A stretch of 64,000 nt of DNA, taken from positions 54,977,812 to 55,041,811 of the forward strand of contig CM049314.1 in the NCBI GenBank assembly GCA_026874595.1, written 5' to 3'. Made by a program: the position numbers and the translations under genes. The DNA comes from Sipunculus nudus. Lineage: Eukaryota > Annelida > Sipuncula > Golfingiida > Sipunculidae. The notes below the pieces were generated by a model. That model searched no databases, was not told where the DNA came from, and saw only the letters and a list, made by a program, of their open reading frames with translations. Below, one piece after another: positions 4,773 to 30,857 of the stretch. Position 1 is the first letter of the stretch, and each line of letters begins with the position of its first letter.

Positions 4773-4836
4773 ATGAAATCGTCGAAATGGTTACCGTTTG
4801 TACTAAACATCGTGATCCCAGCTATTACTCACGCAG
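4773..4836 (+). CDS. gene 1 exon 1: signal peptide
   Basis: The exon starts with ATG and encodes MKSSKWLPFVLNIVIP and a few more residues ending in THA-G: a basic N-end, a hydrophobic core and small residues at a plausible cleavage site. The donor GCAG|GTAAGA is strong and leaves phase 1, as required by exon 2. Confidence 0.7.
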
Positions 4837-7800: not shown

Positions 7801-9196
7801 TTTTTCTACCGAGTCAATTTTGTTCACGACAGACAGGCAACCACTTACAAATGCAGCAGGGTCGATTATGAGCCCAGGTTACCCGAACACGGCAGCCCCG
7901 GGTCTGAGCGAAACGTGGACGATCCAGGTAGAGGGCGCCACCTACATTTTCCTCCATCTCAGAGTGAACTTACCTTCTGTCCCCTGTGCCGCTTCCGTAG
8001 ACGTGGCCGACCAGGATGAAAATCTTCTGAACCAAGATAATCGATGTGGTCAGGGAACTGTTGCCATGACAGCGGTTGGGAACACTGTCTACGTTCAGTT
8101 CTCGACTGAAGCTATACCCACTACGATCAACGGCGGGTTTCAGCTCAATTACACAGGTTGGGAAAACGCTTGAATATCAAATACGAATTTAGACTATTTA
8201 ATACGATCCGAACTGGATCACGTTTAGTTTCGGAAAAGTAACGATGCTGTCCCATTAATCAACACCACACTGTTCGATTTTTTATTGGTTTGATGGAGGC
8301 ACATGATATAATTAAACTTGCAATAGCTAGACTCGCTGTACTGCGGGTCCTGGGTTTGTAATCAACCCCTCTGCTCGCTCATCGTTGAACCATGACAGCT
8401 GTGTAGACTTACACGGCAAAGATCGTCCTGGAGGGGACTAAAGTCAATGACAGCGTCTTGTTCGTTACATGTAACACTGTTAATATATTTTTATTATTAT
8501 TGTTCTATAGAAGTTCTCAGCCTTATATTTGAAATATTTAGTGATACAGTAGCATAAAAGATAGTAAAAGATAATACATGTATCAAAGGACTGAGTCCAA
8601 GCTACTCAAAGCATATGAAGTGTTTCTGTGTTTTTGTTCACAACATAACTCAGGCAGACATGAATCAATCATTGAACGTTATCATGGTAGAGTCACAATT
8701 TATAGTCGATTATGCATGAATAAGCTGGGAATATTGACCGAATAAGTGAATGGCGGAGGCTTGCATTCATTAATTAGAATGTAGAATTCTAATTGTACTA
8801 TAAACTTACATTATAAACGTTGAATTTTACAGAAGATAGTCCACATAAGATAAAAACTGAACAAAATCATGTTGCATGGCCGGTTTGTTGTGTTAACAGT
8901 ATAAAATGGATGCTGATATAACGATCATAAAATGTACAGGTCATAGAGTGCAGTGAATCTGAATTTCTCTTTGTAACCCAGCCCAGATTCCTGATACAAC
9001 TGTCGCCGCAATGACTGAAGCAGCTACGATACCAGAGGAGGACCCGTACAACATCATCACAGGTTTATCTGTTCTTTAATTTAAATATAGAACATTCTTT
9101 TTATTCAGTTATTTTCATTTGAGGTCAATTTATCATCAAGGATGGGTGATGACTTTTTATATAAATCTATTAAATATAGTAATATGACATATTTTT

Positions 9197-9257
<61 letters not shown>

Positions 9258-11608
9258 GTGTAACCCATTTACAATTTAATTTTTTTTAAATAAGGTTTTG
9301 TGTTTTTAGAAACGATAACTTTTAAACCAGGCTCAGATTTGTTTATGTATAAATCTTATTCTCTGAATAGCAGAAGGATGATAATAAACATTGCTCATCC
9401 ATTGAAGCTAAAAAATGGGGGGAATATATACCCCAATTTCCCCTGTATTGGCGCCCCTGCTTTTTTTTCCTCATTACTGATTCAAGAACAAATGAACTAC
9501 GGTTAGGACGTAGCCTAGAGATTTAAGCGTTTGAATACGGAGAAGAAGAGCCTCGGTTTGAACTCCGTCAGAGCCTGAGAGGGAAAATTATGAAATCTCG
9601 ATAGTACGAGATATGGTTAACGTTTTAATGTCTGGTTATGACTTTTTGATTGTGTCTTGCTCCTTGCGTATAAAAGCTGAAACCCAGAGGACGTAATAAT
9701 ACCCCATTCATATCATACGTTTATAAACTGCTCATGCAACAGACTATGTCACCGAGAGGCCTAGCGTCATTACGACCAGATTACTGGTGCCAGAGTGTCT
9801 TTACCACTAAGTCTGAGGAACGCATTATAAGAACTTATGAAGATGCAAATATTTTCGTCATTTCTGACAACGCTTCATGGCCTACATGTACACTATCAAA
9901 CAACAAACCAGACCAATCGTTAGCATTTCTTGTGTACTTTCTAATAATACCAAACATGAGCGAGGATAGTTCCGTTTTAACCCAGCACGTTTGTTGAATT
10001 TATGACCGCATGAACACAAGCATGGCTCGCACGGGTTACAGGAAGCAGAAAGATACAGGAAATGACCCGTTTCCATGGAGACGGTGTTTCAGTTTGGGTT
10101 GTGAGCTCACATGTATACTATTGTGTAAATCATCATTCTTAGCATAATTTTTATATTATGGGCCGTTTACCACATTATGAATGCAACCTGGTGCAAGACC
10201 ACTGCGATACATTCCTCGATATTACTTGTATCACGACTCGAGTAGGCTTACCAGCCCAACTATCCGATTGCCTACTGAGTCGGGATGTCACGGCTATGAC
10301 AGGCCATGGACTTATCCTTAAAAACAATGACATTATTTGCTTTGATTTTGATACTGTGGTTCGCTTTTTACTCGTGATGGTTTCAAATTCTAGGTATTCG
10401 CGAAAGCAAAATAATTGCAAAAACGAAACCTTCGTGAATAATACACCTATTCTTCACAGGTGATTTATAATATATCCTCTTTTGAAGTATATGTATGTTA
10501 TCCACGCGACAAGGCCTGTTGGTTTAAAAAACGAAAGACAAAGGATTGATATGATTAATAATATTAATAAAATATATTTTATGTTACTTGTAATTTAAAG
10601 ACGATATATACAGTATAAGATCTCTCTTGTTATCTGCATGTAGGGGACAATTAAGAACGTCTACTCGGTGTCGTGTGACCTCGTCAGATTGTTAGGACTG
10701 AGCGGAATTTTAAATAATCGATATGATAATGCATATTCCATTTGTACATTACTGCATTGAATGAGCGCATAAATGGCATCCTCGTGAAACAGTTAAATAG
10801 TTAAAAAATTGCGAAATATTAGCCTCGCGAACGTGAAGGCGACCACAGTTTGTCTTTGTTATTTATATGATCAGATTCCGTTAAATTTGTTTTAAATTAA
10901 ATTTTCTCTCTGTAATGTTAGACTCCATTTCTGAGACAGCTGTCGCTGTCATGGCTACCGATACTACTCCTCCACTCAACTTTACAACGACTCTAACCGT
11001 TGGCGAGGACGGCAACGTCGCAGGTATAACATTTATCCTTATACAACCTTTATACTTTGCTAAAGCGACCTGCTAACGGCCTCGGACACTTAGCTTTCTG
11101 TGTCCGTTTTTTTGACAAGAAATATCATTACACTTGGTTTTCTGTGTCTGTTTCTTTGACAAGAAATATCATTACACATGGTTTTCTGTGTCCGTTTCTT
11201 TGACAAGAAATATCATTACACATGGTTTTCTGTGTCCGTTTCTTTGACAAAAAATATCATTACACTTGGTTTTCTGTGTCCGTTTCTTTGACAAGAAACA
11301 TCGATTTTGTTATAGCTCATTAGATAAAAGAAGAAGTCTAACTTATGTTTAAGGGCCAGGTAGAAATCGGTGCCTCTGGCTTGTATTTTATTTTATCCAG
11401 TCCATTTTTGTATTTAAATAATTTTAGAAAAAGATAAAACAAGACATATTTTATGTTTTTATTATTTTATCTTTTGTCCATTGCAGCATCCGGTCTAAGG
11501 GAAAACACTTACAACAGCCTGTGTCCTGGCAGTTCATCCGGGTCTCTGCAGCCTATGATTGGAATTACTTGGAGTTTGCTTGTTTTGCTGGAATGGCTAG
11601 TTATGTGA
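4773..11608 (+). CDS. gene 1: secreted CUB-domain protein with GPI-type tail (5 exons)
   Basis: Exons are 4773-4836, 7833-8156, 8982-9062, 10922-11023 and 11487-11608 (693 nt, 230 aa plus stop). Every junction is phase 1 with GT/AG borders, and no stop interrupts the joined frame. Residues 1-21 form a signal peptide, 22-130 a CUB domain, 131-190 a Thr/Ala/Pro-rich stalk, and 191-230 end in a short SSSGSLQP segment plus a hydrophobic stretch running to the stop. That tail fits a GPI-anchor signal, although it contains one Glu and could be a short membrane anchor. The likely role is an extracellular surface-bound binding protein; the ligand is unknown. The CUB keeps only one cysteine pair (C73, C93). 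The stalk, tail and downstream DNA are homologous to gene 2. Confidence 0.72.
4837..7832 (+). other. gene 1 intron 1
   Basis: This 3.0-kb intron runs from a GTAAG donor to a CGACAG acceptor. Most of its second half is occupied by the TIR element at 5982-7279. The rest is AT-rich and shows no exon-like frame. Confidence 0.6.
5982..7279. mobile_element. 1.3-kb TIR/fold-back element rich in TCGCA motifs
   Basis: The ends are inverted copies: GTATCTCACTCGGCTGCGAC from 5982 matches the complement of the sequence ending GTGAGATAC at 7279, with about 20 of 23 bases identical. Both subterminal arms are crowded with short motifs (TTCGC, TCGCA, TGTCGTGCGA) in both orientations, like multiple transposase-binding sites. 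The central part has no transposase frame, so the element is non-autonomous. No clear target-site duplication is seen, so the superfamily is unassigned. Confidence 0.65.
7833..8156 (+). CDS. gene 1 exon 2: CUB domain
   Basis: A symmetric phase 1-1 exon carries the whole domain. The CUB hallmarks are G-S-I-x-SPGYPN (residues 31-40), the ETWTIQV strand (48-54), the alternating hydrophobic strand YIFLHLRV (59-66) and the C-terminal GGFQLNY strand. The first canonical cysteine pair is missing at both positions (one expected just before W50), while C73 and C93 remain as the second pair. A secreted or membrane-bound recognition role is typical of CUB modules; no catalytic function is implied. Confidence 0.82.
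8157..8981 (+). other. gene 1 intron 2
   Basis: AT-rich intron between a GTTGGG donor and an AACCCAG acceptor. No repeat family or exon is recognised in it. Confidence 0.55.
8982..9062 (+). CDS. gene 1 exon 3: stalk exon A
   Basis: An 81-nt phase 1-1 exon. It encodes a Thr/Ala/Glu-rich segment (IPDTTVAAMTEAATIPE) that matches the beginning of exon 4 (ISETAVAVMATDTTPP) in both protein and DNA. The two exons are therefore duplicates of one stalk cassette. The alternative acceptor 5 bp downstream gives an immediate stop, which supports this border. Confidence 0.65.
9200..9253. repeat. (TA)n microsatellite
   Basis: A pure AT dinucleotide run of about 50 bp, in intron 3 of gene 1. Confidence 0.95.
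9501..9600 (+). mobile_element. tRNA-derived SINE-like fragment
   Basis: GTAGCCTAGAGATTTAAGCG resembles a pol III A box, and GGTTTGAACTCC about 35 bp downstream resembles a B box, in tRNA-like spacing. The cloverleaf is decayed, so this reads as a SINE head rather than a working tRNA gene. Confidence 0.45.
10922..11023 (+). CDS. gene 1 exon 4: stalk exon B
   Basis: A 102-nt phase 1-1 exon (DSISETAVAVMATDTTPP followed by LNFTTTLTVGEDGNVAG). It is the same length and phase as exon 5 of gene 2 (DSIPKRTTVL...PNFSTTFSIEEGSTIPG) and aligns with it throughout. NFTT gives an N-glycosylation sequon, and the Thr richness suits an O-glycosylated stalk. Confidence 0.68.
11092..11307. repeat. 44-bp tandem repeat, 5 copies
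   Basis: The unit contains TTTCTGTGTCCGTTTCTTTG and recurs exactly every 44 bp (markers at 11101, 11145, 11189, 11233, 11277). It lies in intron 4 of gene 1 and is pyrimidine-rich on the coding strand. Confidence 0.9.
11487..11608 (+). CDS. gene 1 exon 5: C-terminal anchor and stop
   Basis: Acceptor TTGCAG|CA joins in phase 1. The exon encodes SSSGSLQPMIGITWSLLVLL and a few further residues before TGA (11606-11608). A small-residue site followed by a hydrophobic stretch that ends the protein is the layout of a GPI-attachment signal. It aligns with the last exon of gene 2 (SSTGSPQPVVGIPIMFVMLA). Confidence 0.65.
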
Positions 11609-12844
11609 AACTGGAACCCCTTCTTGTTTGTTAATACAATAGAGTAATTCTTTAAACGGATTTTTTTATTTATGCAGATAATGTGCTGATGACGTGTACT
11701 CTGATAACGTCACATATGTGCTTTTATGTGGGGATGCACGTGATAATGAAATATATTATAACATCCTGCAAAGTTAAAATACAACCAAAGAGCATATCCA
11801 TTATAATCGGCAATACTTTGACCTGTACAGGTTGTTAATGCTCGTACGTTATTACCAAAGGTAGGATATATGTTATAAGGTCGGGTTCAAATGAGAATGT
11901 TCAAATTCAAGGCGCTTAAAATGAATTTTCATCTTTACTCAATCTGATATGAAGGTATATTTTAATTAATTACTTAATATGTGAAATATTCATTATAGAA
12001 AGTTTGGCAAAAACCGTATGACATTATTCATAATGAAAGCTTTTTCCTGATAATTACCATTAAAATAACATCTTAGAACTGCATTTGCATTTGAAAATTA
12101 TTTGTATATAATTAGATACAAATGAAGTGTTACTGGTAGCCCTGCGTTTAAGTGTAAATGTGAAATCTTTCGATTCAAACTTTAATATATTTTATATATG
12201 CGTATATTTTATATATACGTATGCGATAGGAATAAGGAAGCCATGCGAGAGGAATACCCTGTCACTGGCGTCAAAGTGTGGAATTCCCCGTCCATTACCA
12301 TGTGCATGCGTTTCCAATCGCTATAGTGACCCATCGAAATGTGCTTTCTACTTGTAGGTATATAAGCATACCTACTGCATGCGCATATATGGAATGTCAC
12401 CATTACTTGACTGAATACTGTTACAACCCATATTGTCACATCCTGCAAATATTGAAATGACGGAAATATTTAATAATAACGGCCAAAACCAAATTTTCCA
12501 TTTAATTTAAAATTAAAATTAAAAAACTACGTTACTTTTTTTTTATCTGGTTTGTGCATGTGTCTGTATATCTACTTTGCGATGCCTTAATTCTCAGCAT
12601 GAAAGAAATGACAGAATTATGTAATTTACAACATTAAAAGTGGATACATATGCTTATAACCAGATAAGCAAGTTAACATTAGGCTAAACCTGCTGACTTC
12701 TTATAAATCTAATTGCCTTGATGCAGTACCGAAATAAGATAATGACTGGTCATTCCTAGGTCAAGACACATTCTGTACAGTAATAGCCGGTGGGTGACTC
12801 GTTTGGTCACCGTTTCAGAGATAATGGCGTAGCAGGACATATTC
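11609..12844. other. gene 1 downstream region
   Basis: DNA at about 11690-11765 aligns with DNA at about 30965-31040 downstream of gene 2 (shared GTCACATNTGTGCTTT and GTGATAATGAA blocks), so the duplication included 3' flanking sequence. No canonical AATAAA lies close to the stop. The remainder is AT-rich with no recognised feature. Confidence 0.5.
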
Positions 12845-13640
12845 AATTAAGAGACACCTAGTGTACCCAACCCTCCACCAGGGCAAACCGTCACTACTCT
12901 TGAAACTAAGGGACACCGAGGGTACCCCGCCATCCAGCAGGACAAACCGTCACAGCTCTAGAAACTAGGGACACCGAGGGTGCCTCGCTATGCAGCAGGA
13001 CAAACCGTCACAGCTCTAGAAACCAGGGACACCGAGGGTGCCTCGCAATGCAGCAGGACAAACCGTCACAGCTCTAGAAACTAGGGACACCGAGGGTACC
13101 TCGCCATGCAGCAGGACAAACCGTCACAGCTCTTGAAACTAGGGACACCGAGGATACCTCGCCATGCAGCAGGACAAACCGTCACAGCTCTAGAAACTAG
13201 GGACACCGAGGGTACCTCGCCATGCAGCAGGACAAACCGTCACAGCTCTAGAAACTAGGGATACCGAGGGTGCCTCGCCATGCAGCAGGACAAACCGTCA
13301 CAGCTCTAGAAACTACGGACACCGAGGGTGCCTCGCCATGCAGCAGGACAAACCGTCACAGCTCTAGAAACTAGGGACACCGAGGGTACCCCCGCCATGC
13401 AACAGGACAAACCGTCACAGCTCTAGAAACTAGGGACACCGAGGGTACCTCGCCATGCAGCAGGACAAACCGTCACAGCTCTAGAAACTAGGGACACCGA
13501 GGGTGCCTCGCCATGCAGCAGGACAAACCTTTACAACTCTACAAAACCCGCCATCCACCAGGGCAAACCGTTACACCTCTTGACACTAAGGGACACCGAG
13601 GGTACCCCGCCATCCACCAGGTCAAACCGTCACATCTAGA
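12845..13640. repeat. 58-bp minisatellite, about 13 copies
   Basis: The unit holds GGGACACCGAGGGTACC, GCAGCAGGACAAACCGTCAC and AGCTCTAGAAACTA. Spacing is 58 bp, with near-identical central copies and diverged edges. GC content is well above the surroundings. It lies between gene 1 and gene 2. Confidence 0.95.
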
Positions 13641-14627
13641 TCGTTTTCAACATTTACATTAGAAATCTACATATCGAATGAGGGCATGTGATATGGTCTC
13701 CCCTCCGCTGCTCCCAACTACATGTACCTGAATAGACCTGAACAGATTACTTGCTGAAGGTCCCATCAGGTGTCGCTCTGGTGCGTTCAGTAGCATAAAG
13801 AGGCACCTGGTGGTGGGCGGTTGTTACGGTCAGATCGTGTGTAGTGTCGGGAATGAGGTGACAAGTAGCTTATGAAATTTTATTCTAGGTAAAAGGTAGA
13901 GCAAAACACATGAACCCATAACATTGGCGGTTTAGACACGCTTTAAAAAGTGCAGTATCTACCAATTTAGGCTGGATGTATCCGACAACCAGTAACAGGT
14001 CCCAAGGCTTCACCTTGTACACTATACAAAAAGATTATATTATAAAAGTCTGTGTTTCCTAAAAATCCTATAAATCAAGTAGGTAAGAAAACCTTTGTAT
14101 GATATAGATCATATATTTTGAGTTTGTTTGTACTAGATTAGAAGAAGGCACAACTTAGACATTTATAGCAAAATATAAGCAGGATATTGCTGACTACACA
14201 TAATATCATGAGGAAAAGGCATCTGTGAAAAAGAGATTGGGGTGCGGGAGGGGGGGGGGGGGGACTTCTGTTTCTTATTTAGGCAGAAAGGTTCATGACT
14301 CTAGTATAAATTTATCGGTACAAAATTCTGAGCGTAGGACTTTGGAACATTAACATATCAAGGAACATTTCAAGGGCGTATTCAACGGCGCGCGTCCCTC
14401 CTCTCTGATGTATAATGCTTCATGGATCAGTTAAAGTTAATTCACGTGACGGATGCATACATTTACACAATAGCCTTACCTCTGTTAATTTCAGAATATA
14501 TAAAATCCTTCTTGGTGAATGTGTTTGACTTATTTATATTACTGCCCATGAAAGGTAAACTGTCAAGCTAACGTCTTTTCTCTCGAGGTTTCTTTCAATT
14601 TTCAAGTAACTTCATGTAAAGAAGGTC
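13641..14627. other. intergenic DNA
   Basis: No gene or repeat family is recognised apart from a G14-16 run near 14254. Confidence 0.4.
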
Positions 14628-15195
14628 CCAAGAACACCATCAGTCACATTTAAGGCGTTATACAAGGTTTTTACCACTGCAGATGTCGGTTACCATTGTA
14701 ACGATTCTTGCAATTAGTACTGGAAATCATAAAAATAGCAGTGATTCGACTTATCCAGAATATCAGATGGACACTTTTTAATATATTTTTAAAACCTGGG
14801 ACAATAGACCACCAGGCAAGTATTATATCGTCCGCCTCACCACAACACTTGCACATACTGCATCTGAGTACTTGTATTTGTCAAATTTATATTTATAATC
14901 TTAAAGGGGATGAACCCAGCAAGTCCGACACGCTCCTCGACACAGCGCGACGCAGGCCGACAAAGAAATAAGGCGACACACAACGACACTTGGTTGTGTC
15001 GGTTTTCGTCGCCTAGTAGGCCGTGAAGCGTGTCGTGCGGCCAAAGTAACAAACCAATCGTCCGACACACTTGCGACACACATTGGGGTTCACGACCCGG
15101 AGATTGTCGTGTGTTGGCCAGAAGTAGACCTTTCTCGGTCTGTTGTCTGTTGCAAGTGTTCAGCAATGTATTTGGGGGTAATTGCTCTAGTAGGA
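14628..15195. repeat. 565-bp segment duplicated at 19950-20514
   Basis: This stretch is essentially identical to 19950-20514 (a few substitutions such as T/G near 14707). Its left edge (CCCAAGAACACC) and right edge (CTAGTAGG) are abrupt and do not coincide with an obvious transposon end. This copy continues rightward into a CGACAC-rich element, so it is probably the source. Confidence 0.9.
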
Positions 15196-15816: not shown

Positions 15817-16084
15817 GTCAAGCTATTTTATTCTTTATTCTAAGACACTGGCGAGATTTCACTGACACTCAGAGGTGATTGATAGTTTGACTGAAACTTT
15901 TAGATTTTAGAAGCATTCATCTTTCTCATTTTATACGTTACTGTGAATACAATATAAGTAGATGACATTTTAAGCATATTTTTCCACAAAAAAAGTCATT
16001 ACAACTAAAGCGTTCTAGTTTGATGATGAGAAGCCGAGAAATTACGTGTACTATTCTCTAGCTCCAAAATACCCCCTCAGTGTA

Positions 16085-16213: not shown

Positions 16214-16982
16214 TAAATATGGGACATGTGCCTAAGCATCTTTGGCCCATTCCATTTTAAGGGGATAAAAATGCACACACAAACACATACACACACATAT
16301 ATATTGAATATTTTATTATGACTTTATATAGGAATTTCAGTATGAAAGATCAGCTTATTTTCCCCATTACCGTACAAAAGGGAAATATTATACAGGTGTG
16401 GATTATAAAAGCACAAACACTCCTGCTTAAACGACAACATACGCTAGATACCTCGATCCAATCCGTTAAAAATGCTGAACGGAGCAGATAATGTCTTTAA
16501 AACCGGCACGATATCATAATGTATATAATAAGATAATGTAAATAACTGAGGCTTTATTTAGTATGACCGTAGACGAAAATAGCTTGGCATTTGGTATGAG
16601 GAATTGAGGTCTACAGTACGAGACTATGCATGGCCGGGCATTCTCTGGGCCGAGTTGACCCGCTGGGTACATATAGTTTGCGTGCATACCAACAGATGGC
16701 TCTGCGATAGCCAAAATAGTTTCTCCTCTGCGTTTATGCGGCAGTTTCACATATGATCCTCTGCAGGAAATATTTGCCATTGTTAGTGGGACTTCAGAAC
16801 GGGCAATTCCGAGGTCTTTGCTATAGAGGAATGGGTGACAGAGATTAAGTACTAAACCGTCACATGTAATACAGATAAAAGGCGCGTTTACACATTATAA
16901 TAATTGGAGAGAACTGATGTAACTTTCCGGCGCGGGCAGTGTGTCAGCAGTTTTAGTTGAAACGTAAGCATATACACGCAAG
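16214..16982. promoter_or_regulatory. presumed 5' flank of gene 2
   Basis: This stretch has a CA/TA microsatellite (about 16274-16305) and no convincing frame. An ATTATAATAATTGG segment near 16896 is a weak TATA-like candidate about 90 bp before the start codon, with a GC-rich patch (CCGGCGCGGGC) between. The transcription start cannot be set from sequence alone. Confidence 0.25.
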
Positions 16983-17043
16983 ATGGGATGGAATCCGGTA
17001 ACATGCGCAACACTGCTGGTGATGAGTGGCTGCACTGTTACAG
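16983..17043 (+). CDS. gene 2 exon 1: signal peptide
   Basis: Encodes MGWNPVTCATLLVMSGCTVT followed by a phase 1 donor (ACAG|GTAGGT). The hydrophobic core is short, but the position, the phase and the absence of other candidates fit a signal exon. Confidence 0.6.
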
Positions 17044-18314: not shown

Positions 18315-18357
<43 letters not shown>

Positions 18358-21300
18358 TAGATTAAGTGAAATTCCGAAAGGACGGCGAGTACTGGATGTG
18401 ACCGGGGCAGCGGGGGGGGGGGGCATGGCCCCCTGCGGCCCCCCCTTGGCTACGCCCCTGTTTTTCATAACATGGCCTGGAGAAACTATTCCCCATCAAA
18501 TCTGTTCTACATAGCTGTGTCCTTGTCAAAGGATGTAGGTCACAGGCCCAGTATTTTTTCACCTCTAAAACAAGCATCAAACAACCCATTCATTCACTGC
18601 CTGTTTGGTCCAGAAATGAACATTTAGTGTCGCTTTGTTCGGAGAAAATGGTTATCACCCTGCCCCCTCTCAGGCTTTCACATCCGGAATAGAGCTGCAA
18701 CAGCCGTTATTCTCAGCCGCTGTGATGTAATCGTCCAGTTCTGTACTTCTGCTTGCTGCCTCATTTAGACAATTGTACGATCAAACGTTTGAGAGTTTAA
18801 AATTAAAAATAAATCCTATTGATAATTTTAAAGTTGATATAATTTTTAAGTACAGCTATAGAACTAGCGATGATTGATATCCTCTATGAAAACAAAAATC
18901 AAACGGATCATCCCATTAGGCCAAAAAAAAATAAATAAATAAAATGGTATGGTTCTCAGGCACTCTTTTTTCAGAAATCAATGCGGGCGGGCGGTATTTT
19001 ATTTTTTACCTTTTTTTGGATGTTTCGATGAAAAATGTCATATGATCAGAGAAAAGCATGAAAATAACAGGGTTTTTTTTTGTCTAATCAGGTAAAATTA
19101 CTACATAACAAGGGAAATCATATCAAAATTGTATTATTTTATCTTCTTGGAGGATAAAAATAAAAATAAAAATGTCTCATGTGGGGGGTTAAAATTGACG
19201 CGGGCGGTGCCTGAGAACCATACCTTTTATTACTTATTATTTTTTATTTTTGCCTTAGCTGGCGTATAAATATATTGGTAAATTTCAATCAACCTAGGGC
19301 ATATATGTCAGTCCAAGGAATGTCACTTCAAAGCTTCTTTTTTCTCAATGTGATATCAAATCGGTTCCGTTTCGCAATACATAAATCGAAACACCCTTGT
19401 GTATATACGTAAACATGTGACAGAAATCAGTTGTGTTGGACGTGATGCTGTGAAAATTTCCATAATGCCTTGAACATGATAGCCCGGATTTATTTCACAG
19501 TGGTTTTAGTCTGCTAGCCACTTGTCGGAACTTTAAATCTGAAAGTCACACGCTTTTGAATGTAAATGGTTAAAAATATATCGTGGGATCTAAAGGGTGC
19601 AGCCCCACCCCATTAAATGAGCCGCAAATTTCATTTCATTTTTTTTTTTTTTTTGAGGTTTTCAACCAATTCCTTTGCGGTCTGGATCTCCTCCTTTTCG
19701 GATCATATTACCTTTGCAGATGTTCTTTTTGTCTTCCTGGTTCCCTGGATTTTATTCTTCCTGACTTTTCCAATGTCCCGGATACGCCTCTGAGATATAT
19801 ATATGTACCTCATTTAGAAAATAATATCGTAGTCAACATGCAAAATAAAAAAATGCCCCAATTAGCTCTTTAAAAAAAAACAGATTTGATATTCATCATG
19901 TCCAGGCACCTTGCTTGCTGAGCAAATGTGAGGGGACAATACACAGACCAAGAACACCATCAGTCACATTTAAGGCGTTATACAAGGTTTTTACCACTGC
20001 AGATGTCGGTTACCATTGTAACGATTCTGGCAATTAGTACTGGAAATCATAAAAATAGCAGTGATTCGACTTATCCAGAATATCAGATGGACACTTTTTA
20101 ATATATTTTTAAAACCTGGGACAATAGACCACCAGGCAAGTATTATATCGTCCGCCTCACCACAACACTTGCACATACTGCATCTGAGTACTTGTATTTG
20201 TCAAATTTATATTTATAATCTTAAAGGGGATGAACCCAGCAAGTCCGACACGCTCCTCGACACAGCGCGACGCAGGCCGACAAAGAAATAAGGCGACACA
20301 CAACGACACTTGGTTGTGTCGGTTTTCGTCGCCTAGTAGGCCGTGAAGCGTGTCGTGCGGCCAAAGTAACAAACCAATCGTCCGACACACTTGCGACACA
20401 CATTGGGGTTCACGACCCGGAGATTGTCGTGTGATGGCCAGAAGTAGACCTTTCTCGGTCTGTTGTCTGTTGCAAGTGTTCAGCAATGTATTTGGGGGTA
20501 ATTGCTCTAGTAGGAAAATGGTTATCACCCTGCCCCCTCTCAGGCTTTCACATCCGGAATAGAGCTGCAACAGCCGTTATTCTCAGCCGCTGTGATGTAA
20601 TCGTCCAGTTCTGTACTTCTGCTTGCTGCCTCATTTAGACAAGTGTACGATCAAACGTTTGAGAGTTTAAAATTAAAAATAAATCCTATTGATAATTTTA
20701 AAGTTGATATAATTTTCAAGTACAGCTATAGAACTAGCGATGATTGATATCCTCTATGAAAACAAAAATCAAACGGATCATCCCGTTAGGCCAAAATAAA
20801 TAAATAAATAAAATGGTATGGTTCTCAGGCACTCTTTTTTCAGAAATCAATGCGGGCGGGCGGTATTTTATTTTTTACCTTTTTTTGGATGTTTCGATGA
20901 AAAATGTCATATGATCAGAGAAAAGCATGAAAATAACAGGGTTTTTTTTTTGTCTAAACAGGTAAAATTACTACATAACAAAGGAAATCATATCAAAATT
21001 GTATTATTTTATCTTCTTGGAGGATAAAAATAAAAATAAAAATGTCTCATGTGGGGGGTTAAAATTGACGCGGGCGGTGCCTGAGAACCATACCTTTTAT
21101 TACTTATTATTTTTTATTTTTGCCTTAGCTGGCGTATAAATATATTGGTAAATTTCAATCAACCTAGGGCATATATGTCAGTCCAAGGAATGTCACTTCA
21201 AAGCTTCTTTTTTCTCAATGTGATATCAAATCGGTTCCGTTTCGCAATACATAAATCGAAACACCCTTGTGTATATACGTAAACATGTGACAGAAATCAG

Positions 21301-21501
21301 TTGTGTTGGACGTGATGCTGTGAAAATTTCCATAATGCCTTGAACATGATAGCCCGGATTTATTTCACAGTGGTTTTAGTCTGCTAGCCACGTGTCGGAA
21401 CTTTAAATCTGAAAGTCACACGCTTTTGAATGTAAATGGTTAAAAATATATCGTGGGATCTAAAGGGTGCAGCCCCACCCCATTAAATGAGCCGCAAATT
21501 T

Positions 21502-21537
<36 letters not shown>

Positions 21538-23296
21538 AGGTTTTCAACCAATTCCTTTGCGGTCTGGATCTCCTCCTTTTCGGATCATATTACCTTTGCA
21601 GATGTTCTTTTTGTCTTCCTGGTTCCCTGGTTTTTATTCTTCCTGACTTTTCCAATGTCCCGGATACGCCTCTGAGATATATATATGTACCTCATTTAGA
21701 AAATAATATCGTAGTCAACATGCAAAATAAAAAAATGCCCCAATTAGCTCTTTAAAAAAAAACAGATTTGATATTCACCATGTCCAGGCACCTTGCTTGC
21801 TGAGCAAATGTGAGGGGACAATACACAGACCACGGTCATAACCATCAACCCAGCCCCCTTCCCCGAAACAAGGACTATGCCTCAAAATCTCCTCCTCCCT
21901 TTATCACAACATATCATAGTTTCATATTTATGAATATTTAAGATATATAAAAGTAACTTTTGCCAAATTTTTGGACAAATAATTGTTTTTCTTTTTTTTT
22001 CAAACCTTTAATGTCACCTAAATTTTACAACTATTCAAATACACACTATATTGTAAGCTATTATTAATGACAAATCACTGAGGTAATAAGCGCAGAACAA
22101 ATATTAATTTTTCTTAATATGAGATGCCTAGTTGAAAGATTATTGAGGAAATATGAAAAAAACTATTATCTGGATCACGGAAATATCTCACAATCCACTG
22201 TTTTAAAAATTATGCATTGTATTTTGCGTTGTGAAAAGGTACTTTTTCTCCTTTCTAAGAAAGGTTTATGACCATGACAAGTCCATTTTTTGTGGAAAAA
22301 AACTTTTAAAATCACGATAAAAGCTGCACTTTCGCGATTAATATGCACGGAGTAACTCGTAATTGTCGTGCTTATTCAGTTTAGATTATGTTATATATTG
22401 TATAAGACTAGTGGCGCGGTCTATATTTTTCTAATCCTTTAATTTAACTTTATTTAGCAAATTAAAATAAGCGCCTTCAGTCATTTAAAACAAAGCTATT
22501 GCTATCCTCTGAAGTTGAGACCAGTTCTTAAAACGTGACTATAACCGTTGTTATGTAGCAATACAATTGCTTCTTTTGATTAAACTTCAACACGGACAAA
22601 TGAGTTGTGTGTGCTTTTTGCCTTAGAGCCATATGGGTCGCACATGAATAAGTCCAACCTATTCTGTTGTTTTCATTCATTTAGTACCAGAGTCCACAAC
22701 AGAATGTATGTTTCGTCCCAGAACTATGTTTAAATCATACATATATTTGAACAGTTTACACCACAATGACGTCATAAAACTGCTGTGTGAGGTTTTCATG
22801 ATAAAAAAAGTTCCGCCAGAAATGAAATCAAACCGTCCGATTATGAATTCAGCATACGGACCTGAATTGCTGAATCTCCCTTAAGGAAATTTTTTATAAA
22901 TATATTTCTAGGAAGAGCAAGGGCATCTCCTCTGCCGCCCTCAGACACTTTTACGTCACTTCCGGTCGGGAACTTGTACCACAGAGAGGAGCCTGTGTAC
23001 CGGTCGTCCTTGGACGATTGGTCGAATGCCATGTACATCGTGGATCCGTCCGATCCCATACGTCAGGCGGCTAAGATTGTGAGGTGGGAATACTACGCAA
23101 GGAGAAACGGCGCAACCAGTTTGCTGGTAACTAATCTTAAATTACCCAGCTATTCTGGCCCCCGATCAGACTATATTATTAGGGAAATAAATGTTATCAT
23201 TAGTGGTAGTTATTCATCAGAAATTTTTTCCCTGAAAAAAATGGTTTCAGAATGAAAATAAGAATATACGTCAAGTGCACTTTTTTCAACGTATTC

Positions 23297-23336
<40 letters not shown>

Positions 23337-26300
23337 GTTTTTATTATAAGGGTAGTGTCATGTTAGAAACGTGTTACTTATATCGAGCCTAAGACCGGCA
23401 AAGTTTAAATAAAAAACCTGCATAAAAAAATCCATGCCATAAATCAGATGGCCAAGCCTCAAATGTAAAATACCATGGTCACATAATTGTAGACCACTTT
23501 CAATTTTCTATCAATTTCTTTTGTTTGAAGGTGTTCAGGAAAGCCAATGAAAAGAAACGCTATAGACTTGTTTCCAAAAGCAGTTACACATCAGGACGAG
23601 GTTTCAACAAATTTCGGGTCTGTATGCATTTATATTACTGTGTAATTAATGTGAGATGTTATAGAGCCAAATAATTCACGTATTAGGTATACTTCATAGT
23701 GTAAAGGAGTTACGTATGCATGCGAGTTGCTTCTCAAATTTTACGAGCACATGTATTACAGACGTAATAAAGACGTCTTAATGATGCATTTTTTTCAATC
23801 TGTGCATTCAATGTAAAGAATGTGTTTGCTTGGCTACAATTGTGACATCTCCAGGCAAATTTACAAGTCTGAAAAATATGTTAAAAAACATAAATGTAAA
23901 CAAAATGTGGATGGCACTACCAGTCTTGCACAGCTAAGGAGTTGTCCATAACCAATAAGTTTACCAGGATTTCAGAAAGAGCCATGCAAACATTAAAGTA
24001 TGAATTTCACACGACAGCTTAAAAACGTTATAATTTCGCATTTGTGTCCGCAACTGGCTGGTTCGATTTTCTTCATATTTTGCATGGTAGTATGTAGAAA
24101 GATGCATGCACAATATCTTAGTTTTATGGCTGAATGCAAAATTTATATTTTGCAGCCCAGAACACTAACATAAGTCTGATTTTTTAAGTGCTAAAACACA
24201 AAACTTGCGTAACCTTCAATAAACAAAGATTTACCAAGGACTGACCAGGATATTAAGTAAAAAGTTTCTAGGTCGAGCGGTTTCAATGGCAAACCGTAAT
24301 TCCTGAGTAAAAAAAAACACACAATAAAGAAATGCGTAAAATTATGGAAAAAGCTGATGGCACCACCATTTGTGCATGGCTAAAAGGGCCATCCATGGTC
24401 AATAAGCCTTCCGAATTCAGAACTATCCATGCAATTACTACTGCGACATATCAAAAGTATAAATTTCATATATCATCAGGTGTAAATATTAAATTTTCGT
24501 AATTGTTTCGCAACAGTTCTGAAGAACTAGCTGGGCAGATTTTCTTCATTTTTTTGCATGGTAACAATGTATATATGCAGTTGATGTACATTGTTTAAGT
24601 TTTCCAGCCCAGAACACGAACACGTCTGGTTTTCGAAGTGCTAAAACACACAAAAACGTACATGACTCGTAAAATATAGGTCACATTGAGATTTACCAAG
24701 GAGCTACCTTAATATTAACTAAAAAGTTTCTACATCAAACGGTTACGATTTGTGCCTTGTTAACCATTGACAGACATACGACGGACAAAGGGTGATCACT
24801 ATAGCCCAGATGACATATGGTCAGCTAAGCCTATAAAAATGGGTCATAATATTTGAATAACACGAGGAATTTTATCAATATATATAACCTCTTTTTAACT
24901 TAGAATTAACTTGTACAGTTCTCTTATTAACTTACAGAACATGGCGGGGAGGTTTTCTATGTGGAATTGACACTTGCTTGCATTTACCGACAAAACAACG
25001 AAACTCCCGGTGTGGCCGATGTGGACAAGTCTTGGCATCTCAAACTATCCCATTTTTCGCGAAAATACTGTGCCTAAGGCCAAAAAGATAAAAGGTATGG
25101 TTCTCAGGCACCGCCCACGTCAATTTTACCCCCCCCCCCCCCCGCATCAAAAATGTTCATATTGATTTTCAATAGAAACTTACAAATTTTGAGCTTCAGC
25201 CGCTCAAATATTTCTTTCAAGAAGAAAAAATACAATTTTGATGAAATTTCGTTTGTTATGTACGGCTTTTACCTGTTTAGCAAACATATTATGTTATTAT
25301 CCTTTGTCCTGATCATATGACATTTTAATTGAAACATACAAAATAAGGTAAAAAAATCGCCCGCCCGCATTGATTTCAGAAAAAAGTGCCTGAGAACCAA
25401 CTCTTATTCTTTTTGGCCTAACAGAGACGTGGTATATGACGCTCTTTGGCGCAGCGTCTGACCTGAAACACTATAAAGCCATTTGTATGATTCATACATT
25501 CATCTAGTGCTTCAAGTACCTGTGTGCCTCCGGTCCGAGGCAACTAGAGAACAGCCGTGTATCAGCTATTCATCTGTCACTGACGTAACGATGCCCTGGC
25601 TCAAATCTGTGTTATAAAAAGTTTGGTCGATTTTATCCAGCACACGGCGCGCCTGACCGCGGTTAAATTCCAGTAAGCTGACATTGCAGCACGGGGCCGC
25701 ATACTCCTAATAATGCCCCTTTCACACACAAAAAGTTTTCATAACGATTTGGGCACGTGCTTTCACATGTGTATCTAGCACCAACGCATGAGGTGTTCAC
25801 TTCACATCTGGAACAATGTAATAACATGCGGACACATGCCAATGCGCTTGGAATTTTGAAATGTCACTTGGTTGCTGCTTGAAAATGAAAGCTAGGTCAA
25901 AACCGTTTTAGAGTTTTAGGCCAAAAAAATAAAAGGTATGGTTCTCAGGCTTTGCCTGCGTCAGTTTTAAACCCCCGCATGAAACATTTGTATTTTGTTT
26001 TTCATCTTTTAAGAAGATAAAATAATCCAATTTTGATACGATTTCCTGTGATATGTAGTACTTTTACCTGTTAGCAAAAAAAACCCCTGAAATTTCATGT
26101 TTTTCCCTGATCATATGATATTTTTTATCGAAACATACCAAAATAGGTCAAAAATGAAATACAGCCCTGCCCGCATTGATTTCTGAAAAAAAGTGCCTGA
26201 GAATCATACTTTTTTTATTTTTTTGGGCTTAACACATTAACCTAATGGATAAATGATTCGCATTCAACACGGTCTGTAACCACCTGCAGGGGCGGATTCA

Positions 26301-29300
26301 GGAATTTAGAATGGGGGGGGGGCACGTATCGGGTGAGCCAAGGTGCGGGGGGGGGGGTAAAATATTTTTACCTGAGGTTATTGCCAAGGTGCAAACATTT
26401 TTGAAAATTGTGTTTTTAATCGTGCAATCAGGGGTCGCTTGAATGAATTGTAAGCAAAACATACATTGTAACTGTTCTATACACTTGGTGTACTATAATT
26501 TTTTTCTCCAGATTTTGTTTTGTCAGGTCGAAAAAGGCGCCCCCCCCCCCCAAAAAAAAAAAAAAAATCCGCCCTTGATATGCTATGCTGGATTCAAACC
26601 ATTTCGGCTGAAATTGTTTAAATGCTTTGGTTTGCCGCTTGAAGGCTCAAGTCGCTTTGGACAGAAAAAGTGCAACAATGCAATACTTGTCCGGTAAAAC
26701 TGTCCTTACTTTCCATGACTGGATTAACTAGCATGGACCGTAAAGAATTATTAAATTAACGAGGAGTATAAAATGATTGTTTTTCTGAAAGTTTATTCAA
26801 CCACAGCCCCATTCCCTGCATCCAGGATCCTGGATCCTCAGCCATCAACAAAAGATTACACATATTGCCGACGTACTGACGGAATTATGTAATTTTGCAC
26901 TGTGAACATAATGTTTTGATATCCACATAATTAATAAACAATTGAGTTTGATTTAGCTTTTCAATATAGCATCCGAGTTTTATCTTAGAATGAATGGCGG
27001 CTGGATTCAAATGGGTAGGCTCAGAAAAAAAAAAAAAACAAATACGTTATTTAATTCCCTTCTGATTATAATGAATTAGTTTGCCGAAAGATCTTAAAAA
27101 TATATTGTCTTCTTGCAGCCAAACGGGTCTATTACCGTAGAACGTGGTGACTTGCTAGGTTTCTACTTCCCTGGACAGAGCATCATTCCATATGATGGCT
27201 TTGAATGTCTCACCAACCGGACGCTCTACGTCAAATCACCGAGTCACGTCACTGAGGGAAGCTCGTATGATTTCTCAACCAAACACACCGGATGGGATCC
27301 CTGCCGCAAGTACTCCGTCCGCGCCCAGCTTGTTACTGGTCAGTCTTTTTATAATTTATTTTATTTTAAACCCTTTATCGTGTTCATATTTCATTATTCT
27401 TCTTTTTTTTCTTGACTTTGTTTATGCTTTGACCAAGTAGGCCTATGTTTAGGACAGTTGGCTAGGAACCACAACAAACATTCTTTGGATTGTTATATAT
27501 AATGCTTGCAGGCTGTCAACTTTCTATTGAAATGATCGAAAATGACCAAACAGTCCATTCTTCATTTAGTAACAAGTTTTGGTTGTAATAGTGGTCTAAA
27601 CCATCTGTATCAAACATACTCAGTAAATTCTGACCAGAAATATAATAGCGGGTACAAAATCCAAGATCTGGTATTATTGCACGTGCAAATAAGGGCCAGT
27701 ATAAATGTTATGATGAATGTTAACGAGAGAAAAACTATTTTTAGTTTCTTACATGTTATTGTAAGAAACTATAAAAAGATTACATATAATACGTCGATCA
27801 TCATATATTGTTCTTGCTGCGGCTGCGAACATATGCAGAAGGGAACTGCGTACTGAAAGTTAATCAGAGGTGAATCTTAGGGTGCTAACAGACATAGGAA
27901 CAGATAAAACTCTTGCCATTCAAACTTTTGTCCCCTCCAAACATAACACAAAATGGAGATATGCTAAACACCATATTAAGCTGGAGGGGTATACAGATCT
28001 GCCGAATACCTACAAAGATAATCACCACAAGAAGGATCATTATATCTGTGATCTGGGGAAAGAATTTAGGGCTCAAAGCCAGATATCGTCAGTTTGAATC
28101 TCAGCCGAGGAGCGGTGATTTTTTTCACGGTCCGTCCCCCCACAGGGTATAGGCGTTCTGCAGGATTAATTGGAAGACTGTATTCTAAAGTCGGGTTGCA
28201 CTCATAAACGAGTGCGCTTTTCGGGCGTTCCTCGGTGTTATGACCCAGCAATGGGGAAGGATATGCAACCAGGACCCGCAGGTGCGATAAACAGAGCCTG
28301 ATTGGCAGTAGGTAAATCTTGTGTTTCTGCCCTGTCACGTAGTACAAAGCCGAAATGGAATACTGCAGATGTACTTAGAAGTTAGTTTGTCCAGCGTTAA
28401 TAATGAAAGTTGTGACCTCCACCAAACAAAATATATAAAAAGGATCATTGCGTGGTCAGAGTGCCCTCAGATTTTGTTGCTATTTAGCTGAAAGATTTGC
28501 CACTCCATACATTCCCCTTCCCTGTAAGCAGTAAACATTGCGTGAATTTGTTTTTAATATTATTAGTAAGTATATGTTATTGAACATCCCATCTCTTGAT
28601 AAATAAAACTAAAGCGTACACCTGATTTTGTTTCACCCTATTTTAAACCCAAAATAATCCTGAAAGTTTTTCAAATATAAGTATGTTTAATGATCTAATA
28701 CATACTTTTAGTTATACATGAAATGAATGTTGTTGATTCATGCGCTATATCGATGCATTTACGTATAAATTATACATATAATATATAGTATAAATTTTAA
28801 TAATTCCCTGAAATAGTCGGATTGCTGTGTATGCATAAAGGTGCCGAAAGGGTGTTATCCTGCCATCACATAACCTTGGTAACTCATCTTTGTAGAGATC
28901 ACTCGAGCTGAGCAGCTTGTGTTACTTCACAATAATGTCGACTTGTAATCAATCACTCAGCATATGTTAGACGCATTGCCAAGACCTAAAATTTCCGTCT
29001 CTCTGGTATTTAACATATTTAATTTACCTAATGATTATTTAATTCAATAGATCGTCTAGACTATGACATGCCCACATGAATATAAGAGATGAAATCCAGC
29101 AGGCTTAATAATAATACATCATGCTTATCATACGAATGAGTTCATCTTCACACAACAAATGTTACCCCGGATATCGCCGACAAACAACATCACTGGCTTT
29201 TGATGTTAAGATTTTTCTTACATTTTATAGTAATGTCTTCGTTGCACATGTAAAAATATTCATATTTTCTCTCTGCCATAGACTCAATTCCCAAAAGGAC

Positions 29301-30857
29301 AACTGTTTTGATTGCTGTCCAGAGAACGACTCGACCGAACTTTTCAACGACTTTCTCCATCGAGGAGGGCAGCACAATCCCAGGTTTATCCTCTCTTTTA
29401 ATCTCTTATATATTATTTAATATTAATTGTAATCCAGGATTAAGATGAGAACCAGTAGCGGCATGTAATGTTAGAGAAATCTGAAATGTTGACCTAGAGT
29501 TAACCTTTATCAGTCGTAATATGAATGGATTCCTGGCTATACACAACCCAACTAACCATTTATCACACATGATCCAAATCAACGGCAATAAAACATCAAC
29601 GGTGTAACAAAAATAAAGGAAACGTTTTTGCATTTTATGAACATCTCGGAATGCACAGGTCTTAGTTTGATTCCTTTTAATTAATTAGGTACATTTCTTA
29701 TCGCTTCACTGATTTTTAGTATTTTACTCAGCACCTTTTTTTTGCATCACACTAGTGAAATTGACTTCCATGTTTTCAGATAAGAAAAAGTGTTATTTTT
29801 ATTTAAAAACCTAATGCCAAACACTTAAAAAACGTAAAAATCATGCAACATGTTTAATTTACCTAATGATTATTTAATTCATTAGATTATCTAGACTATG
29901 ACATGTCTGCATGAATACAAGAGTTGAAATCCAGCAGGCTTAACAATAATACATTATTCTTATCGTACGGATACGTTCATCTTCACTCAACAAACGTTGC
30001 CACTGATACCGCCGACAAAAACATTATTGTCTTTTGATGTTAAGATTTCTCTTTCATTTTAAAGTAATATATTCGTTGCACATGTAAAAATATGCAAATC
30101 AAATTTTCTCTCTGCAGCCATAGACTCAAATCCCAAAAGGACAACTGTTTTGAGGGCTGTCCAGACTACGAATCGACCGAACTTTCAACGACTTTCTCCA
30201 ACGAGCAGGGCGGCACCAATCCAGGTTTATCCTCTCTTTAAATCTCTAATTGTAATCCAGGAATAAGATGAGAACCAGTAGCGACATGTAATGTCACGAG
30301 ATATATGACCCAATGACCTAGAGATAACCTTTATCATTCGTAATATGAATGGATTCCTGTCTATAGTCAACCCAACTGAGCATCCTAAAAGTCTATCACA
30401 CGTACATGATACACGCCAACGGCAATATAACGTCAACGGTGTAACTAAGATAAAAGAAACTTTTTTTTGCATTTTATGAACATCTCGGAATGTACAGGTC
30501 TTAGTTAGATTCATTTTAGTTAATTAGGTACATATCTTACAGCTTCATAGATTTTTAATATTTTACTCTGCACAGTTTTTTTGCATCACACTAGTGAAAC
30601 TGACTTCATTTTTCCACATAAGAAAACGTATTATTTTTTATAAGAAATCTAATGCCCAACAATTAAAATACGTACAAATCATGTTAACATGTATCTTTTT
30701 ACATTTACTATTCACGATTATATGCCTGATCATTGCAGCCTCCAGTCCCAAGGGAACTTTGAACATCAAATCGACCATCAGGAGTTCAACCGGATCGCCA
30801 CAGCCTGTGGTTGGAATTCCAATCATGTTTGTAATGCTGGCGGGGCTGATTTTGTAA
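16983..30857 (+). CDS. gene 2: secreted GPI-type protein with beta-sandwich-like ectodomain (6 exons)
   Basis: Exons are 16983-17043, 22912-23126, 23531-23617, 27119-27338, 29282-29383 and 30739-30857 (804 nt, 267 aa plus stop). Phases 1, 0, 0, 1, 1 all match, with GT/AG borders and no internal stop. Residues 1-20 look like a signal peptide. Residues 21-195 form one ectodomain with WEYYARRNGATSLLVFRKA, YRLVSKSSYTSGRG and ERGDLLGFYFPGQ: the pattern of a beta-sandwich module common in marine invertebrate secreted proteins that I cannot name with certainty. Two cysteines (C151, C183) may pair, and NRT at 154 is a sequon. Residues 195-228 are the stalk and 229-267 the GPI-type tail. The duplicate exon at 30124-30224 is left out because it breaks the frame. 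Confidence 0.7.
17227..17292. repeat. poly-C tracts
   Basis: Two C-runs (about 12 and 23 bases) separated by ordinary sequence. On the minus strand they are G-runs able to form quadruplexes. Confidence 0.85.
17387..18460. mobile_element. hAT-like TIR element
   Basis: The ends CAGGGGCGTAGCCA (17387) and TGGCTACGCCCCTG (18447-18460) are perfect 14-bp inverted repeats, a terminus common to non-autonomous hAT-type elements in animals. G-rich subterminal blocks lie inside both ends, with a (TA)n run inside. A clean 8-bp target duplication is not seen. The two ends could belong to a deleted or nested pair. Confidence 0.6.
18645..19950. repeat. 1.3-kb direct repeat, copy 1
   Basis: Near-identical to 20515-21832; the main differences are poly-T length (about 19640 versus 21504) and scattered substitutions. 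It contains a complete PIF/Harbinger-type MITE. It starts AAAATGGTTATCACC and ends ATACACAGACC. Confidence 0.93.
18919..19254 (+). mobile_element. PIF/Harbinger-type MITE, copy 1
   Basis: Ends start GGCCAAAAAA and end TTTTTGCC, with the inner inverted repeat GGTATGGTTCTCAGGCAC matching its complement near the right end. Flanked on both sides by TTA. A 3-bp TWA duplication is the hallmark of PIF/Harbinger. Length 336 bp, non-coding. Confidence 0.8.
19950..20514. repeat. inserted copy of 14628-15195
   Basis: It sits exactly at the junction between the two 1.3-kb repeats. Left junction CAGACC/AAGAACACC and right junction CTAGTAGG/AAAATGG show 1-3 bp of shared sequence with the source. This suggests a templated filler at a duplication breakpoint. 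Confidence 0.88.
20515..21832. repeat. 1.3-kb direct repeat, copy 2
   Basis: Second copy of 18645-19950, with a longer poly-T tract at about 21505-21536. After 21832 the sequence becomes unique (ACGGTCATAACC). Confidence 0.93.
20789..21124 (+). mobile_element. PIF/Harbinger-type MITE, copy 2
   Basis: Same element as at 18919, copied with the 1.3-kb repeat. TTA flanks on both sides. Confidence 0.8.
22912..23126 (+). CDS. gene 2 exon 2: start of ectodomain
   Basis: Acceptor TTTCTAG|GA joins in phase 1; donor CTG|GTAACT leaves phase 0. It encodes residues 21-92: a Pro/Ser linker, an aromatic- and charge-rich stretch (SSLDDWSNAMYIVD) and the strand KIVRWEYYARRNGATSLL. Codon content and composition differ clearly from the AT-rich flanks. 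Confidence 0.72.
23127..23530 (+). other. gene 2 intron 2
   Basis: This 404-bp intron contains an (ATT)n microsatellite at about 23298-23337. Nothing else is recognised. Confidence 0.6.
23531..23617 (+). CDS. gene 2 exon 3: ectodomain middle
   Basis: An 87-nt phase 0-0 exon (VFRKANEKKRYRLVSKSS then YTSGRGFNKFR). The strand-turn-strand pattern YRLVSKSSYTSG continues directly from exon 2 and into exon 4. The donor CGG|GTCTGT is weak, but only this border keeps the frame. Confidence 0.62.
23880..24790. repeat. diverged ~460-bp tandem duplication
   Basis: About 23880-24335 and 24336-24790 align with many substitutions: GATGGCACTACCA versus GATGGCACCACCA, CAGCCCAGAACAC in both, AAGTGCTAAAACACA in both, GATTTACCAAGGA in both. 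Only two units are visible. Confidence 0.75.
25078..25418 (-). mobile_element. PIF/Harbinger-type MITE, copy 3
   Basis: Starts GGCCAAAAAG, ends TTTTTGGCC, flanked by TAA on both sides. The internal order is reversed relative to copies 1 and 2 (the GCCCACGTCAATTTTACC side is on the left). It contains a C15 run. Confidence 0.8.
25919..26228 (-). mobile_element. PIF/Harbinger-type MITE, copy 4
   Basis: Starts GGCCAAAAAAATAAAAGG, ends TTTTTTGGGC, flanked by TTA on both sides. Same orientation as copy 3 and more diverged (AATCATAC at the right inverted repeat). Confidence 0.78.
26287..26577. mobile_element. second hAT-like MITE
   Basis: Left end CAGGGGCGGATTCAGG and right end AAAATCCGCCCTTG are inverted copies over 11 of the first 12 bases. 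G-runs lie at the left and C/A-runs at the right. No clean target duplication is seen. Non-coding, 291 bp. Confidence 0.5.
27119..27338 (+). CDS. gene 2 exon 4: end of ectodomain
   Basis: Acceptor TCTTGCAG|CC joins in phase 0; donor ACTG|GTCAGT leaves phase 1. It encodes residues 122-195 with GSITVERGDLLGFYFPGQ, a strand motif typical of this kind of beta-sandwich module. Cysteines C151 and C183 and an NRT sequon at 154 fit a secreted fold. Confidence 0.75.
27339..29281 (+). other. gene 2 intron 4
   Basis: A 1.9-kb intron with a perfect hairpin near 27738-27777 (AGTTTCTTACA arms) and a SINE-like segment near 28030-28350. Frames within it have no support. Confidence 0.5.
28030..28350 (+). mobile_element. 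possible SINE-like repeat
   Basis: CAGTTTGAATCTCAGCC near 28089 resembles a degraded pol III B box, followed by a GC-richer body (CACGGTCCGTCCCCCCACAG, AACGAGTGCGCTTTTCGGGC) unlike the intron around it. No A box or target duplication could be fixed, so the call is tentative. Confidence 0.25.
29282..29383 (+). CDS. gene 2 exon 5: stalk exon
   Basis: A 102-nt phase 1-1 exon with acceptor CTGCCATAG and donor CCAG|GTTTAT. The peptide DSIPKRTTVLIAVQRTTRP then NFSTTFSIEEGSTIPG aligns with gene 1 exon 4 and keeps its N-F-S/T sequon. It is the copy that preserves the reading frame into the last exon. Confidence 0.68.
30124..30224 (+). pseudogene. duplicate stalk exon with 1-nt deletion
   Basis: Aligns with 29282-29383 but is 101 nt long: one T is lost in CGAACTTTCAACG (TTTT in copy 1). 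A second, stronger acceptor (TCTCTGCAG) opens 6 bp upstream, in the same frame. Including this exon shifts the last exon, which then reads PPVPREL and a stop, removing the anchor. It is either a dead exon or an alternative exon making a soluble form. Confidence 0.6.
30739..30857 (+). CDS. gene 2 exon 6: C-terminal anchor and stop
   Basis: Acceptor CATTGCAG|CC joins in phase 1. It encodes SSTGSPQPVVGIPIMFVMLA then GLIL and TAA. Small residues followed by an uncharged hydrophobic end without a cytoplasmic tail are characteristic of a GPI-attachment signal. A possible AATAAA lies near 31293. Confidence 0.7.

Follow-up and report, generated by a model that had tools for sequence, protein, structure and literature searches.

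How have two neighbouring genes come to carry the same stalk and anchor exons beneath unrelated ectodomains? This question is raised by a 64-kb stretch of Sipunculus nudus DNA (C9:54977812-55041811, here called the window), in which gene 1, encoding a CUB domain, is followed by gene 2, encoding a different extracellular head. A first-pass annotation had explained the pair by duplication of a whole gene and later replacement of the ectodomain exons. We consider it likely that gene 2 is a chimera instead, joined within a phase-1 intron from the front half of another gene family, whose nearest members are two neighbouring genes here named A and B, and an anchor of the gene 1 type. Both gene models were rebuilt from raw sequence. 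Pairwise similarity was gauged against 500 dinucleotide shuffles and is given as a z-score with the number of shuffles reaching the observed score. Neighbourhood searches covered 264 kb around and including the window, with window numbering kept beyond its ends, and genome-wide searches covered the species' own 1.43-Gb assembly. The two models comprise the following features.

4773..4836, plus strand: gene 1 exon 1, signal peptide, ends in phase 1; without match to gene 2 exon 1
7833..8156, plus strand: gene 1 exon 2, single-exon CUB domain, phase 1-1; Pfam CUB, E-value (E) 1.1e-5
8982..9062, plus strand: gene 1 exon 3, first stalk exon, 81 nucleotides, phase 1-1
10922..11023, plus strand: gene 1 exon 4, shared stalk exon, 102 nucleotides, phase 1-1; z 12.4 against gene 2 exon 5
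11487..11608, plus strand: gene 1 exon 5, tail of glycosylphosphatidylinositol (GPI) type, and stop; z 14.8 against gene 2 exon 6
11696..11857, plus strand: gene 1 3' flank in common with gene 2; 63% identity to 30972-31133, E 6e-9 to 7e-9
16875..16982, plus strand: gene 2 5' flank, in common with A and B
16983..17043, plus strand: gene 2 exon 1, signal peptide, ends in phase 1; homologous to the A and B signal exons
22912..23126, plus strand: gene 2 exon 2, head part 1; 76-82% nucleotide identity to A and B
23531..23617, plus strand: gene 2 exon 3, head part 2; 68-69% nucleotide identity to A and B
27119..27338, plus strand: gene 2 exon 4, head part 3, ends in phase 1; 80% nucleotide identity to the closest A/B copies, 67-68% to the others
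29282..29383, plus strand: gene 2 exon 5, shared stalk exon, 102 nucleotides, phase 1-1
30124..30224, plus strand: frame-broken tandem copy of the gene 2 stalk exon, 101 nucleotides, one base missing
30739..30857, plus strand: gene 2 exon 6, GPI-type tail and stop
30907..31194, plus strand: gene 2 3' flank, in common with gene 1 (30972-31133) and with a broken anchor copy (plus strand, 67836-68124)

Gene 1 is modelled with five exons and 230 residues, gene 2 with six exons and 267 residues. Every intron has GT-AG ends, and the frames are open over all proposed junctions. The junctions between signal exon, head or CUB, stalk and tail are in phase 1 in both genes, as expected of the phase-compatible swap that had been proposed for this pair; the two junctions within the gene 2 head are in phase 0.

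That the anchor exons are common to both genes, as first suggested by inspection, was borne out. Neither the score of the stalk exon pair (z 12.4) nor that of the tail exon pair (z 14.8) was reached by any of the 500 shuffles, so that the tails resemble each other well beyond chance, and the motif SS-x-GS-x-QP is invariant between them. The downstream DNA also aligns, again as had been noted: the 200 bases following the two genes give z 13.5 (0/500), the first 100 bases alone are at chance level (336/500), and local search extends the shared flank to 11857 in gene 1 and 31133 in gene 2. The same search found a shared intron patch (9648-9719 and 29059-29134, E 1.5e-4). Stalk exons seem to duplicate in place: gene 1 exon 3 resembles the start of its own exon 4 (z 5.5) and not the gene 2 stalk exon (z 0.7, 500 shuffles), and the flanks of the gene 2 stalk exon and its tandem copy are 86% identical (29012-29276 against 29847-30115).

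By eye, the C-terminal shape of both proteins fits the GPI type, with a small-residue site, a hydrophobic end and no cytoplasmic tail. The first-pass annotation had likewise called the tails GPI-type, and attachment itself is a prediction from that shape. Both tails also pass a hydrophobic-tail scan, which is unspecific (99 matches on both strands of the 264 kb, some nested and genes 1 and 2 included) and was dropped as evidence at other loci.

Upstream of the stalk the two genes part, and here too the original observation of unrelated ectodomains holds. The CUB exon compared with gene 2 exons 2, 3 and 4 scores at chance level (235, 314 and 238 of 500 shuffles), as do the two signal exons (347/500) and the 500 bases upstream (174/500). 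The gene 1 ectodomain passes Pfam CUB at E 1.1e-5 (26.2 bits against a cut-off of 21.4), and its best PDB relative is cubilin (E 1.5e-5). The possibility that the gene 2 head is a diverged CUB was rejected, as it shows no Pfam CUB match and a CUB-against-head hhalign probability of 0.6%. For the gene 2 ectodomain no convincing relative was found in Pfam or PDB, including by a four-member family profile against PDB, and none in NCBIfam. Amidase_6 stays below its gathering cut-off for the gene 2 head (13.1-13.3 bits against 23.2) and is matched by two of four head family members (best E 0.0013).

The closest relatives of the gene 2 head lie past gene 2 on the minus strand, in the multi-domain genes A and B (70-118 kb in window coordinates, ~39-87 kb past the gene 2 end), whose models were read from exon order. 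In gene A a signal exon at 87965 is followed by the exons of four heads, the last reaching 71595; in gene B the signal exon is at 117555 and the exons of its two heads extend to 110078. The likeness extends to the 5' ends of these genes. Gene 2 positions 16875-17187, covering flank, signal exon and the start of intron 1, match the 5' end of A (61%, E 5e-19), and 16875-17163 match that of B (65%, E 4e-25); the signal exon splice site is identical in all three genes. Because homology to A and B takes in the ~108-base flank, the signal exon and the first part of intron 1, the 5' half of gene 2 appears to have travelled as one piece, with the join in intron 4.

A and B lack the anchor. The tail profile found no copy near either gene in the 264 kb, and a scan for phase-1 hydrophobic tails came up empty behind A and gave a single poor candidate behind B. 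Each gene seems to end in an open phase-1 exon that is acidic, Ser-Gly-rich and without a hydrophobic end (70430-70285 in A, 108974-108835 in B); the one in A contains seven SG pairs. These end exons are 91.9% identical between A and B, a figure that falls to 86.4% in the flank upstream and 78% in the one downstream (gaps excluded). The A and B proteins are probably secreted. Since the front half of gene 2 is homologous to A and B, which lack the anchor, while its anchor matches gene 1, gene 2 is best read as a fusion. Its two halves have different relatives and meet within an intron at matching phase, as in an exon-shuffling chimera.

The position of the join can be narrowed from both sides. 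Homology to A and B stops at 27371, 33 bases past exon 4, and homology to a third anchor copy, which lies outside the window and is collinear but broken (plus strand, 66954-68124), starts at 28628; therefore the join falls within ~1.3 kb of intron 4.

27372..28627, strand not assigned: join interval between head-derived and anchor-derived DNA, gene 2 intron 4
66954-67244, plus strand: broken copy, matches gene 2 28628-28936
67374-67560, plus strand: broken copy, matches DNA immediately before the stalk exon
67697-67766, plus strand: broken copy, matches gene 1 around the tail acceptor, weakly (E 0.005)
67836-68124, plus strand: broken copy, matches the gene 2 3' flank

Shuffle controls score the broken copy at z 22 and 23 with gene 2 and at 13.8 with gene 1. 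Ahead of it on the plus strand, neither a head nor a CUB was detected. This collinear broken third copy indicates that the anchor is probably a unit that gets copied.

Few further copies of the anchor were found. In the 264 kb, the only match of the tail profile beyond genes 1 and 2 was of half length (E 0.018, plus strand, at -52135), and the stalk profile added only the broken copy. Genome-wide, the gene 2 tail found only itself and did not recover gene 1, the gene 1 stalk and tail query returned its two source exons plus a match at E 4.1 but not gene 2, and a DNA search with 30731-31070 found only itself. The first-pass annotation had envisaged a cluster of GPI-type receptors, with further members to be sought with the tail exons. 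None rose above noise genome-wide, although distant copies could be missed, because neither search returned the other gene. Two intact genes and one broken copy in 264 kb do not amount to an expanded anchored family.

These observations suggest how gene 2 may have been assembled. The part from the 5' flank through the signal exon to the third head exon would derive from a family of probably secreted multi-domain proteins, with A and B as the nearest members, while the stalk, GPI-type tail and 3' flank would be the anchor unit that in gene 1 stands behind a CUB. Recombination in a phase-1 intron would have placed the complete head unit before the anchor unit. Both products are expected to enter the secretory pathway, shed the hydrophobic tail and be held on the outside of the cell by a short Thr-rich stalk, a location predicted for each from its signal exon, stalk and GPI-type tail. 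Gene 1 would then present a CUB, and gene 2 would tether a head that A and B would release in soluble form. A binding function for these heads is conceivable, and a role of the genes in recognition would be a guess.

Several points weigh against this account. The exons of genes 1 and 2, and so their splicing, are predicted from genomic DNA alone, and GPI attachment is deduced from tail shape. Protein identity between the shared parts is about 30% (stalk 31%, tail 33%), and the introns show no alignment in 300-base stretches next to these exons (z -1.5 to 1.0). A contrary control is that the 1000 bases upstream of the two genes score z 3.5 (3/500). The values of dS, the synonymous substitution rate (0.34-0.72), are too noisy for ordering the events. 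Finally, the acidic Ser-Gly end exon of A and B is likely rather than proven to be coding: its identity of 91.9% compares with 86.4% in the upstream flank, and its codon differences between the genes are 4 synonymous and 6 nonsynonymous.

The direction of transfer could also be reversed, which is compatible with gene 2 being a chimera: an anchored head gene would be the older one, and gene 1 would have arisen when a CUB and another signal exon came to stand before a copy of its anchor. The relatives of the gene 1 CUB at E up to 0.1 are indeed only three and distant (C9 near 33 Mb, E 0.007-0.012). They precede another cysteine-rich exon, and tail and stalk profiles found no anchor behind them in the 5-6 kb read. 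However, A and B, the closest head genes, are without the anchor, and three anchor copies without an outgroup are not rootable. We regard this direction as possible though doubtful.

A chimera that is now decaying without function appears unlikely. The frame-broken second stalk copy of gene 2 and the broken third anchor would fit such decay, as would the ratio of nonsynonymous to synonymous rates (dN/dS) of 0.75 for stalk and tail between genes 1 and 2 (dS 0.72, dN 0.54). Against this, all six exons of gene 2 are open with intact splice sites, and its head exons have ratios below 1: 0.42-0.59 for exon 2 against A and B, and 0.22-0.29 for exon 4 against three A/B copies (0.10 against a fourth, distant copy, where dS is nearly saturated). 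Head exons 2 and 4 are constrained, and stalk and tail much less so.

Even less probable is a single alternatively spliced locus in which several heads use one or two anchors. The phase-1 junctions between signal, head, stalk and tail, all on one strand, would permit it, but signal exon, stalk and tail are present separately in each of the two genes, and A and B are on the minus strand. Duplication of the whole CUB gene, with the old promoter and signal exon kept while the ectodomain exons were replaced, has in its favour the head-to-tail order, the common stalk, tail and 3' flank and the z of 3.5 upstream; it is rejected as highly improbable, since in gene 2 the 5' flank and the signal exon go with the head, matching A and B and not gene 1, and no second CUB at E below 0.1 was found in the 264 kb, including near gene 2 and before the broken anchor.

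With gene 2 read as a chimera, its head can be followed as a family of its own. At exon level, the head has 98 genomic matches at E <= 1, of which 82 reach 1e-3 or better. The three exons of gene 2 itself are counted among them, and C7, C9, C4 and C12 carry most of the matches. Dense runs of matches occur at C7:66-74 Mb, C4:22 and 48 Mb and C12:52 Mb, mostly as single open frames of ~170-260 residues. The DNA behind four other heads (L034-L037) was read over 6 kb, for exon order only. PAN exons above cut-off follow two of the four (3.6e-9 and 5.5e-7), a PAN-like exon below cut-off and then a C-type lectin exon above it (5.5e-7) follow the third, and a repeated cysteine domain without a Pfam name follows the fourth. 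The head belonging to the L034 place, designated L032, is encoded entirely by a single exon of phase 1-1, and L033 holds three further head exons. In nine other loci (L030-L038, 47 kb) the tail profile found no copy of the gene 1/2 anchor and the best stalk match was at E 0.64. The head of gene 2 thus recurs at other loci ahead of PAN or C-type lectin exons. Pattern searches for head relatives gave 6 candidates in IMG/VR and 23 in GTDB contigs, none of which tblastn confirmed. The head domain is an expanded extracellular family without a convincing Pfam or PDB counterpart.

The locus is a well-resolved case of cell-surface protein assembly, with both halves traced to two neighbouring gene families, a join placed within ~1.3 kb and an anchor relic nearby. 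Tentatively, a transferable anchor unit may have converted a secreted protein of recognition type into a receptor at the cell surface. Soluble (A, B) and tethered (gene 2) forms would then coexist within ~100 kb, as members of an expanded domain family that also occurs in combination with PAN and C-type lectin domains. The unnamed head family is possibly the more interesting lead and merits naming and ligand-binding work.

Other sequence features were recorded around these genes. Near-identical segments, seen by eye, lie in and before gene 2 intron 1 (14600-15190 and 19950-20515; 18640-19960 and 20515-21830). Within intron 4, 28068-28440 is a probable dispersed repeat, with similar stretches at -48202 and 101853. 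A plus-strand copy of exon 4 and intron 4 (26401-28335 against 97975-104650, 84-88% in pieces) has its exon split over two frames and is without stalk or tail. When the DNA beyond the last heads of A and B was compared in sense orientation with the gene 2 3' region, a match was obtained only at 32160-32595, with A alone. It was rejected as a collinear A 3' flank behind gene 2 and looks like a dispersed repeat, because parts recur at three further places in the 264 kb (122694-123148, 127893-128025 and 92295-92406). Between genes 1 and 2, 12879-13545 is a 58-base minisatellite of 11.5 copies. Long tandem repeat arrays at 39545-62949, with units of 71-84, 148, 331 and 365 bases among others, occupy much of the window's right third. 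Dense runs of CUB matches occur elsewhere in the genome, at C1:50.67-50.92 Mb, C5:25.68-26.04 Mb and C17:22.14-22.20 Mb (150 scored of 745 candidates).

Shuffling of phase 1-1 exons is typical for extracellular modules such as CUB. The fusion in gene 2 is a clear case of phase-1 exon shuffling, ordinary in kind and by a well-known process, and genes 1 and 2 show phase 1 wherever signal, head or CUB, stalk and tail adjoin. They differ from the classic pattern in that the 5' flank and signal exon belong to the swapped unit and the 3' flank to the shared one, and in that the junctions inside the gene 2 head are in phase 0.

The portions of the literature retrieved held analogues only, with nothing on the gene 1/2 pair or the head domain. 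Among these, the nearest published analogue is amphioxus FrLRR, for which the available part of the report describes a predicted GPI site, a proposed exon-shuffling origin by entry of leucine-rich repeat (LRR) exons into a folate-receptor gene, and bacterial binding and phagocytosis (PMC10199209). Like the gene 2 product with its GPI-like tail, FrLRR is an invertebrate protein with a predicted GPI site and a proposed history of exon shuffling. In FrLRR, as far as that part of the report goes, LRR exons would have entered an existing receptor gene, whereas in gene 2, known from sequence alone, a whole 5' half was joined to an anchor unit at an intron. The Botryllus recognition locus fuhc is described, in the part of the source available, by a secreted and a membrane form (PMC3691228), and by that description alone its pairing resembles the one proposed here for A and B with gene 2.

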